Assembly (NCBI GenBank): GCA_030154445.1
Contig: JAGUQW010000003.1
Span: 1 to 62,205 of the forward strand
Direction of reading: 5' to 3'
Origin: Spirochaetota bacterium
Lineage (GTDB): Bacteria > Spirochaetota > Brevinematia > Brevinematales > Brevinemataceae
Length of the DNA: 62,205 nucleotides
A program made the position numbers and the translations under genes. Numbering within the stretch: position 1 is the stretch's first letter; every line of letters begins with the position of its first letter. Shown here piece by piece: positions 699 to 58,739 of the stretch. The notes under the pieces are model-generated. The model was not told the origin of the DNA and made no database searches. It saw only the letters and a list, made by a program, of their open reading frames with translations.

Positions 699-1103
699 TT
701 ATCCTGAAATATTAATATTACTGGTATTTTTAGCATTAGTATTCTCTTTTGCTAGAAGATCATCCCAACCATTTTTTAGATTAGTTATAAGAGTAATGCT
801 TTCTTTTATAGGAGCTGTGTTTTTTTGAATATTAGCTTCAACTAATAAACGATGTATATATATGTATAATCCAGAGAGATCTTCTGCAATACTACCTGCT
901 TTAAAATCTAAAGACGATAATAATTCACTTATAATATTTTGAGTTTTAATGATATTATTATTTGCAGATTCAATATTTTTATTTTCAATTGCTTCGATTG
1001 CTAAGTGAGCAAATTTTATTGCTCCAGAATATAGCATTACTATAAGCTTTAATTGACTAGCAGTTTCGATATCATTTGTTTTATAAGTTTCATATCCATA
1101 CAT
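699..1103 (-). CDS. fliS: Flagellin-specific export chaperone FliS
   Basis: This 134-residue, all-helical protein matches FliS in size and layout: a YGYETYKTNDIETAS start, a conserved LKLIVMLYSGAIKF segment at about residues 19-32, and helices ending near NGWDDLLAKE. FliS binds the C-terminal helices of flagellin in the cytosol, prevents premature polymerisation and hands flagellin to the flagellar type III exporter. The start is set by a GAGGAG sequence just upstream of the ATG. It lies between pdxA (45-bp gap) and the acidic repeat protein. FliD, often beside FliS in other bacteria, is about 56 kb away here. Confidence 0.93.
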   Translation of the reverse strand: MYGYETYKTNDIETASQLKLIVMLYSGAIKFAHLAIEAIENKNIESANNNIIKTQNIISELLSSLDFKAGSIAEDLSGLYIYIHRLLVEANIQKNTAPIKESITLITNLKNGWDDLLAKENTNAKNTSNINISG

Positions 1104-36889: not shown

Positions 36890-37417
36890 TTATTTTAAAT
36901 ACTTATAATAATAAGTAATATTGAATTTTTTGTGATATACTAATTTTATTATTTTAATTATTTGATCCCACTGAGATAAAGATATATTGTGATATGGTAT
37001 AGGGAGTATTTGATAAGGACTAAAAGCAAGAATTAAAGCTGTTTTAGTAGTGTTAATTTGATACATATTAGATAATTTAGTTTGTTGAACTCCATTAGAT
37101 GTAGTCCAGATTATGGTATCTTCTAAAAATTCAAAGTACATTTCGTTTTGTAAAAATAGAGTGTTTTTATAAATAATATTAGCTCTTTTTTTTATAATAT
37201 GTGGAATAAGAATTCTGTAAAAGATCCACAAAATAAACCAGACAATAATAATTTTCATTTCTAAAATATTAGAATAGATGATACTAATAATAACAGATAC
37301 AATAATAAAACATACAAGACTATTTGATATTATTTTAAAAAATATTCTGTTTATAAAAAAAAGTAGTAGATTATCGGAATACTCTTGCTCCGATAATTTG
37401 ACAACAATTTTAATCAT
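36890..37417 (-). CDS. YcxB-like membrane protein
   Basis: The 175-residue protein has two membrane helices at about residues 37-75 and a C-terminal domain with the YcxB-like pattern FEFLEDTIIWTTSNGVQQTKLSNMYQI. Such proteins are common but uncharacterised. It ends 10 bp before lnt and is the first gene of that unit. AAGG lies seven bases before the ATG. The 270 bp between it and glnQ hold no gene that I can see. Confidence 0.75.
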   Translation of the reverse strand: MIKIVVKLSEQEYSDNLLLFFINRIFFKIISNSLVCFIIVSVIISIIYSNILEMKIIIVWFILWIFYRILIPHIIKKRANIIYKNTLFLQNEMYFEFLEDTIIWTTSNGVQQTKLSNMYQINTTKTALILAFSPYQILPIPYHNISLSQWDQIIKIIKLVYHKKFNITYYYKYLK

Positions 37418-55075: not shown

Positions 55076-55393
55076 ATGACTATCCCTCATATACATAATA
55101 TATCTGAAGAACAAATAAATAATCTCCAAAAAAATTCCTTTATTGTAATTGATGTAAGAACTATAGAAGAATATGAAGACGGGCATATAGACTCAGCTGT
55201 ACATATTCCTGTAGATAATATGGTAGATAATCTTGATAACATACCTCAGGATAAAATTATTTTACTGTATTGTCGAAGTGGTACTAGATCACAACATGCC
55301 ACAGAATATCTTAAAAATAATAATTATCAAGCTTTCAATATAGGTAGTTTTTTTCACCTAACTGATAATATTATAAAAAAATTAAATGGATAA
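55076..55393 (+). CDS. Single-domain rhodanese, first of a tandem pair
   Basis: The 105-residue protein is a rhodanese domain with FIVIDVRTIEEYEDGHIDSA and the active-site loop LLYCRSGTRS containing the catalytic Cys near residue 69. Such proteins carry persulfide sulfur. It is cytosolic and starts a unit of rhodanese-rhodanese-rpiB-SRPBCC-like genes with gaps of 1-11 bp. Confidence 0.9.
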   Translation: MTIPHIHNISEEQINNLQKNSFIVIDVRTIEEYEDGHIDSAVHIPVDNMVDNLDNIPQDKIILLYCRSGTRSQHATEYLKNNNYQAFNIGSFFHLTDNIIKKLNG

Positions 55394-55398
55394 TACAT

Positions 55399-55743
55399 AT
55401 GATTAATAATATACTACACCAAGATCATAATCGACAAATATCCGAACGAGATTTTTTACTACTAAATATGGATGATGTTTATATTATTGATGTTAGAAAT
55501 TCATTTGAACTTAGTAGTGGTTTCTTGAAATGTGCTCAAAATATACCGTTTTCAGAAGTATTAACTTTTCCTTTTTATATACCAAAAGATAAAATTATTC
55601 TTACTTATTGTAATTATGGTAATAGAGCAGGTAAAGTTGCTTTAGCATTATTTGAAGCAGGGTATAATGCTTATTCTTTAGGTGGATATTCTCTCTTTTC
55701 CCAAAAGATTAAATCTAAGTGTAATTATCAATCAAATAAATAA
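55399..55743 (+). CDS. Single-domain rhodanese, second of a tandem pair
   Basis: The 114-residue rhodanese has VYIIDVRNSFELSSGFLKCA and the loop LTYCNYGNRAGKVA with the catalytic Cys retained. The loop differs from the first copy (CNYGNR against CRSGTR), suggesting different partners. The gap to the first copy is five bases; together they resemble a split tandem rhodanese. Confidence 0.88.
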   Translation: MINNILHQDHNRQISERDFLLLNMDDVYIIDVRNSFELSSGFLKCAQNIPFSEVLTFPFYIPKDKIILTYCNYGNRAGKVALALFEAGYNAYSLGGYSLFSQKIKSKCNYQSNK

Positions 55744-56640: not shown

Positions 56641-56697
56641 AAAATAAAAAATATATATTATTTTAATAATTTACATTTTAATAAAAATCATAAAAAA

Positions 56698-56707
56698 CCG
56701 ATATAAT
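56698..56707 (+). promoter_or_regulatory. Candidate promoter element of fliD
   Basis: CCGATAT (56698-56704) resembles a flagellar sigma-28 -10 element, and overlaps a TATAAT (56702-56707). No good -35 accompanies either (TTAA at 56678-56681 is the best sigma-28 match), so the sigma factor is uncertain. Confidence 0.35.
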
Positions 56708-56744
56708 ATATAGAGATATTTTATTATCAACAAGGAAGGGGTCT

Positions 56745-58739
56745 ATGCACTTCATATTGTTCTTAATTATTTTTATAATGATACCAAATATATCTATAGC
56801 TCAAAGAGTTCAAATATCTGGAATACCTGGTCAAGACAGTGATATGAATATTACAGATATGTTAGATCAAATTATGGCACCATATTACAGTGAATTAACA
56901 AATCTTAATAATAATAAAATTGATAAAGAAATTGAATTTGAATTATGGCAAGATTTCAAACAACAAATCAAAGAATTTGAGCAAGTTAATAACTATATTA
57001 TGGGATACGAATCCGCATTCCGATCATTAACTAATACTATTTCAGATCCAACAGCAATACAAGCACAAGTCGCCAGAACAGCCAAATATGGTGAATATCG
57101 TGCAATTATCAATACATTAGCAAGTCCTCATTCTTTTGCATCAGCACCTATTTCTATAGACAAAACTATTGTAAAAGGTGATTTTTCTATAATCATTAAC
57201 ACAAACACTAATTCTATACAATTTTCCGGTGGAGATATAACAAGCCTCTTTAATTTGTTACGATCAACTCTATCAAACAATATAGACGTCAAACTTCTAA
57301 ACGCATCCGATACAAAAAAAATTATTGCTCTTGTCGGTAAAAAAGAAGGAGCTATTAATAAAATTCAATTTGATGGAGATCTAGCACCTTTATTAGATAC
57401 TAGGATTCTTACAACTGGAGAGCAAAGTGAGACTAATATCCAATGGTCTCTATTCAACACTAATTTAATTATTTCTAATTCTAGTATTACAATAGAAACA
57501 TCGTATCCTTTAAAAGATAAAACATTATTATCATTTTCTGCATTATTAACAGATATAATTCTTCTTGTAGAAGATGAAAATACAAATAAAATATCATTAT
57601 CGAACCTTACTCAAAATACAATTGGAGAAATTACTAACTTAAATATTATCTTACCTGGAGCAACACCTATTTTAGAAGATATAGCTTTAGATATTGATAA
57701 TCCAATAATCGTCAAAGAGCCTATACAACAACTTGTATTAATATTTGATGATAATACTATAGAAAATATTCCTCTTAAAAATGAGAAATATTCTATTTCG
57801 TTAGATAAATTTATCGATAAAACTCTAGTATCTATAACAGCAATGGCAGAAAAGAAAATTTTAAATATCTCTGATCTTACTCTAATATCTTCACCTGATG
57901 GAGCATTAAAACCATACAATGAAACTTCTAAAGCACAAGATTCTGTACTTTTATTAGATGGACTAGAAATTACAAGACCTTCAAATATTGTTTCTGATTT
58001 AATTCCAGGGGTAACATTAGAATTATTACAAGAAAAAACTGGTACTATTAGAATTCAAATAAAACCTGATATTGAATTAATTAAAGATACAATTATACAA
58101 TGGGTTGTAAAATATAATAATATTATGGAAGAAATATTTATTTATACAACTATTCCCTTAAATCAAATTGGACGAACAAAACCACTACATATACGAAAAA
58201 AAAATGAAGAAGACTTAAAAGAAGGGACTTTTTATGGAAATACATCGTTAATTGGATTTAAAGATAGAATGCGTCGTTTAGCTGGTTCTCCTCATGGATT
58301 AGATCAAAATTCACTTAGTTTATTAGATCAAATCGGTATTTATACAAGAAGACGAACTTCTTTAAATAATGATCCAGATGCTTTACGCAAAGGTACTTTA
58401 ACCTTAGATGTAAGAGAACTAGAAAAAATATTAAATGAAAAATTTGAAGAAGTAAATAAATTATTTGTTTTAGATACTGATGGAAACAATATTGCTGATA
58501 GAGGTGTTGCAATTTCAGCTACAAGTACTCTTAAAATGATGATAGGTGGGAATGGGTTTTTGGATAAAATAGAACAAGATAATTCTAAAAAAATGAAAGA
58601 TTTAAATGCTCAGATTACAAAAAAAGAAGAAGCTATTGAAGTAACTGATAGAAAAGAAAGACAAGCACTATTGCAAATGAATCAAGCTATTGTAAAAAGT
58701 AAAGCTTTATCTGAATCACTACAACAACGATTAAAATAA
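56745..58739 (+). CDS. fliD: Flagellar filament cap protein FliD with Sec signal peptide
   Basis: FliD caps the filament and guides flagellin assembly. The 664-residue protein has a GIPGQDSDMN-ITDMLDQIM start like FliD N-termini, a D2-D3-type beta region in the middle, and a FliD C-terminus with LAGSPHGLDQNSLSLLDQIGI, GTLTLDVRELEKILNEKFEEV and NKLFV, then a terminal coiled coil. Unusually, it begins with a Sec signal peptide (MHFILFLIIFIMIPNISIAQ, cleavage after SIA). A GGAAGGGG ribosome binding site fixes this start. FliD normally passes through the flagellar exporter; here it may reach the periplasmic filament by Sec. Confidence 0.85.
   Translation: MHFILFLIIFIMIPNISIAQRVQISGIPGQDSDMNITDMLDQIMAPYYSELTNLNNNKIDKEIEFELWQDFKQQIKEFEQVNNYIMGYESAFRSLTNTISDPTAIQAQVARTAKYGEYRAIINTLASPHSFASAPISIDKTIVKGDFSIIINTNTNSIQFSGGDITSLFNLLRSTLSNNIDVKLLNASDTKKIIALVGKKEGAINKIQFDGDLAPLLDTRILTTGEQSETNIQWSLFNTNLIISNSSITIETSYPLKDKTLLSFSALLTDIILLVEDENTNKISLSNLTQNTIGEITNLNIILPGATPILEDIALDIDNPIIVKEPIQQLVLIFDDNTIENIPLKNEKYSISLDKFIDKTLVSITAMAEKKILNISDLTLISSPDGALKPYNETSKAQDSVLLLDGLEITRPSNIVSDLIPGVTLELLQEKTGTIRIQIKPDIELIKDTIIQWVVKYNNIMEEIFIYTTIPLNQIGRTKPLHIRKKNEEDLKEGTFYGNTSLIGFKDRMRRLAGSPHGLDQNSLSLLDQIGIYTRRRTSLNNDPDALRKGTLTLDVRELEKILNEKFEEVNKLFVLDTDGNNIADRGVAISATSTLKMMIGGNGFLDKIEQDNSKKMKDLNAQITKKEEAIEVTDRKERQALLQMNQAIVKSKALSESLQQRLK

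Follow-up and report, generated by a model that had tools for sequence, protein, structure and literature searches.

The closest described system is the FliD/HAP2 filament cap (PF02465 and PF07195; solved structures 6sih and 9gnz). Canonical FliD/HAP2 starts directly, with nothing in front, and its export runs through the flagellar type III system; in textbook accounts FliD is a type III substrate whose passage through the hook must precede filament growth. The FliD described here resembles this cap in its two domains, in the terminal helices forming D0-D1, in being single-copy, and in a CCGATA-type box ahead of its gene, like those of other flagellar genes. It differs in that, throughout its class (Brevinematia), a predicted cleavable Sec-type signal of about 19 residues stands in front of the protein. 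Lack of a Sec signal together with type III export is a usual, not a defining, property of FliD, and the 16 class FliDs that we found all depart from it by carrying the signal.

Two other systems are comparable in part. The sheath protein FlaA (PF04620), which is Sec-exported in spirochaetes (PMC9254593), shares with the class FliD a Sec-type signal, a periplasmic destination and, as we predict for FliD, joining the filament from outside; the two have no homology, and FlaA coats the sides of the filament, not its tip. OrgC of the Salmonella injectisome likewise helps a filament to assemble and is active when provided externally, but it is normally a substrate of its own type III system, has a different fold and acts in initiation only (PMC6066329). 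Flagella of Brevinematales are hardly studied (PMC10691653), and a search of the open-licence literature returned no paper that mentions a FliD with a Sec signal. By its sequence, the class FliD belongs to a known family, and what is new is its predicted export arrangement.

The fliD gene and its N-terminus

The window (the whole stretch of DNA analysed, 62,205 nucleotides) contains the following features at fliD.

56697-56704, + strand: ACCGATAT, sigma-28-like -10 element (CCGATA type) of a probable flagellar promoter, from its shared motif
56732-56741, + strand: ribosome binding site AAGGAAGGGG, read directly, ahead of the ATG at 56745
56745-58739, + strand: fliD open reading frame, 664 residues, stop codon 58737-58739, with Pfam FliD_N and FliD_C
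56745-56801, + strand: predicted Sec signal peptide MHFILFLIIFIMIPNISIA with putative signal peptidase I cleavage SIA/Q (the slash marks the cut), from its hydrophobic core, small residues at -3/-1 and class-wide conservation
56802-58736, + strand: predicted mature FliD (filament cap), residues 20-664, from Pfam domains and the AlphaFold match to solved caps
56838-57131, + strand: FliD_N domain, residues 32-129, with the long N-terminal helix (residues 36-86), from Pfam and the model
57933-58700, + strand: FliD_C domain, residues 397-652, with most of the C-terminal helix (residues 605-663), from Pfam and the model

The protein as encoded begins with MHFILFLIIFIMIPNISIA followed by QRVQISGIPG (codons 1-20, by direct reading, are MHFILFLIIFIMIPNISIAQ). 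Both domains score above their Pfam cut-offs, FliD_N over residues 32-129 (E=1.5e-8, 35.5 bits against 24.8) and FliD_C (E=1.4e-36, 126.5 bits against 25.4), which places the protein in the FliD family. The NCBIfam model NF005188 (FliD) gives it 249 bits, under the equivalog cut-off of 469; query residue 27 is aligned to model position 6, and residues 1-26 lie nearly all outside the model. The AlphaFold model, built with 14 sequences (pLDDT 79), has the cap fold with paired terminal helices: the long N- and C-terminal helices are intact, residues 1-26 are of low confidence, and the top Foldseek matches are FliD caps (E=9.4e-22, probability 1.00), with matches to the solved caps 6sih and 9gnz from Campylobacter and Salmonella.

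The predicted signal has a strongly hydrophobic core (mean 3.78 on the Kyte-Doolittle scale, 9 residues), small residues at -3 and -1, and no lipobox Cys at +1. Its n-region, MHF, has no Lys or Arg, where most relatives do have one, and this is the only sequence feature expected of a Sec/signal peptidase I substrate that is missing. An earlier note, made from the letters alone, had proposed that FliD, from a start with a strong ribosome binding site, carries a textbook Sec signal. Signal, ribosome binding site and FliD domains were all borne out, and a signal was seen in 16 of 16 class members; given the n-region, the word textbook is slightly generous for this species. The mature N-terminus, QRVQISGIPG, lines up with an ordinary FliD start (MSDLSIPGV), so the signal is an added piece. 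Two Brevinema compared over the first 20 residues show 8 amino-acid changes, with hydrophobicity retained.

Could the start codon have been mis-called? No ATG, GTG or TTG was found in frame between the ATG at 56745 and the preceding stop, and the next in-frame Met past the signal is residue 34, which lies within FliD_N and has no real ribosome binding site. Five relatives (L006, L008, L010, L011 and L015) have no ATG, GTG or TTG from the signal to about residue 51, well within the conserved FliD helix, which excludes a downstream translation start in those five. In family f2 the fliD genes have a perfect AAGGAGG ahead of the annotated signal start; the FliD starts of G006 and G015, which lack a good ribosome binding site, are uncertain. 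A mis-called start was ruled out, since these five relatives offer no start codon past the signal and ahead of FliD_N, and many have a good ribosome binding site at the signal start. One f2 gene (L012, G007:C1, near 1806520-1808100, in a one-contig genome) is broken by a frame shift near residue 550, followed by an apparent transposase or insertion element; fliD is intact in its relatives G004 and G010.

The window genome (1.5 Mb), that of a Brevinema-type spirochaete of the Brevinematales, yielded no second FliD, and its flagellar set is otherwise complete. A second, ordinary FliD elsewhere was ruled out for the class as well (one FliD per class genome), so no unsignalled copy is available for the capping job.

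Distribution of the signal among spirochaetes

We compared FliD in 18 genomes (5 families) of the same class. FliD was found in 16, and 16 of 16 begin with a Sec-type signal peptide, though as relatives these are not independent observations. In all of them the start, in most cases with a K or R, leads into a hydrophobic core, and a small-x-small motif comes next; the signals sit ahead of the position where other FliDs begin. The cleavage motifs vary (SIA/Q, IHA/Q, IFS/Q, VHS/Q and GYS/Q), and identity between the FliDs of different families is about 20-30%.

Among 113 other spirochaete genomes of 37 families, no credible FliD signal was found. Core hydrophobicity is 2.2-3.9 in the class FliDs versus a median of 0.59 in these genomes, whose FliDs have ordinary starts (MPVT..GGMASG, MSDxxIPGV and similar) 9-18 residues ahead of FliD_N; Treponema-, Borrelia- and Brachyspira-like families all have FliD without a signal. 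One formal match, in G060, was rejected: it depends on taking an alternative TTG as the start, the n-region is then acidic, and the ATG of that gene yields an ordinary FliD. Our signal scoring is a crude home-made test, not a SignalP-type predictor, and is also passed by 46 of 689 internal Met-started segments and by 43 of 143 open reading frames (180 kb of the window genome). At these rates chance is not negligible for one gene alone; it does not explain a signal that 16 of 16 class members have and that about 0 of the 113 genomes outside have.

The sole further credible case is G030, a lone genome of another class, with the Sec-type signal MVKKTSNKYGLSSAYLVLVLCFVLPVSLLSQ on a fliD that adjoins flagellin genes (G030:C25:7400-9570; L188 / L073). 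In the FliD tree G030 groups, on a long branch, with the signal-less G027, and these two together form the sister group of the class. Its signal is possibly a second origin of the trait, and the switch to a Sec-signalled FliD may have happened twice, in the class and in the G030 lineage.

The predicted signal therefore belongs to one class and one isolated lineage, and a general spirochaete feature was ruled out by its absence from the 37 other families. The earlier note had placed the signal in a spirochaete setting, which stands for these two groups and not for spirochaetes in general. The comparison of N-termini that it called for found the segment on every class FliD, and the idea of a Sec signal on FliD survived it. 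Its suggestion that a Sec-routed cap is plausible gains support from this class-wide segment and from the five relatives without a downstream start.

Export route of the cap

We consider it quite probable, from the sequence comparisons, that Sec exports the class FliD, that signal peptidase I cleaves it and that it docks at the filament tip from the periplasm, with flagellin still travelling through the channel. SecA/SecYEG would move FliD through the inner membrane and signal peptidase I would trim off about 19 residues, leaving an ordinary FliD with the same starting point as other FliDs. Free periplasmic FliD would then assemble on the hook-filament junction (FlgK/FlgL) and would remain outside the filament at its tip. 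Flagellin (FlaB), hook and junction proteins would still pass through the flagellar type III channel. Sec use, cleavage and outside docking are what we infer for FliD, and the route would be workable only thanks to the periplasmic position of the filament, by which Sec would deliver FliD to the compartment of the tip. For docking from outside there is a precedent: in work of Ikeda, Yamaguchi and Hotani (1993, cited in PMC6066329), a Salmonella fliD mutant reportedly grew filaments again when purified HAP2 was supplied externally.

That the class builds one filament by two routes, flagellin via the type III channel and the cap via Sec, is likely. In the window genome no signal was found on FlgE, FlgD, FliK, FlgB, FlgC, FlgF, FlgG, FlgK, FlgL or the three FlaBs, and the axial-protein copies read in other families likewise have their usual N-termini without a signal. 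Only FliD and FlaA, which has a Sec-type signal, carry one among the axial proteins read, and Sec routing of all axial proteins was ruled out. FlhA of the export gate was found in every one of the 18 genomes of the class, and 16 of them have signal peptidase I. The window genome has four FlaA-family genes (C4:73962, C17:16717, C2:194795 and C2:195716), as does most of the class.

FliD might instead still pass through the type III channel, as to our knowledge every other FliD does, with the hydrophobic N-terminus either ignored or avoided by a downstream start, for which Met34 lies in frame shortly past the signal in the genus of the window. We regard this as unlikely. A downstream start would remove the conserved N-terminal helix in the five relatives named above, and both the perfect AAGGAGG ahead of the annotated f2 starts and the want of a real ribosome binding site at Met34 speak against it; an ignored signal is at odds with the normal capture of strong signal peptides by SecA or SRP.

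The class FliD could also have left capping to another protein and now serve, like FlaA, in the periplasm or the sheath. The predicted export route that it has in common with FlaA and the divergence of the class sequences (20-30% between families) fit this, but it is very unlikely: each genome has one FliD that keeps both domains, the predicted structure aligns with solved caps, a sigma-28-like box is common to fliD and flagellar genes, and fliD of G030 adjoins flagellin genes. Most improbable of all is an uncleaved membrane anchor tethering FliD to the inner membrane. The core is hydrophobic enough for one and cleavage is a prediction, but every class FliD has a small-x-small motif after the core, and a tether would forbid the cap from following the tip of the growing filament.

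If FliD is indeed Sec-exported, the cap can do without the channel, filaments that are broken or complete could receive a new one, and the move of the filament into the periplasm would have freed one component from the flagellar exporter. The class-wide switch would then be a clean test of which assembly steps depend on channel delivery and export order. The FliD signal is a simple signature for the class, whose cultivable members include Brevinema andersonii and Thermospira aquatica.

Promoter box and neighbouring genes

The CCGATA box lies 41-48 nt 5' of the fliD start in 4 of 4 family members and also precedes flaB3, flgG, fliK, flgB and fliS. In the window genome the pattern [AT]CCGA[AT]A[AT] is found upstream of flgJ-like and fliM/N-like genes as well, and it is enriched at flagellar genes (Fisher p = 1.5e-4, with a partial flagellar gene list). 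It is likely, judging by the motif, a sigma-28 type promoter element, and since fliD and flagellar genes have it in common, fliD is probably expressed with them.

Elsewhere in the window, FliS, the flagellin chaperone, is encoded at 699-1103 (- strand; PF02561, E=2.6e-37) with a CCGATAA box upstream. Two tandem single-domain rhodanese-like genes (55076-55743, + strand) lie just 5' of an rpiB-like gene and fliD, and a near-perfect palindrome, TTATCGGA...TCCGATAA, at 37371-37396 is perhaps an operator.
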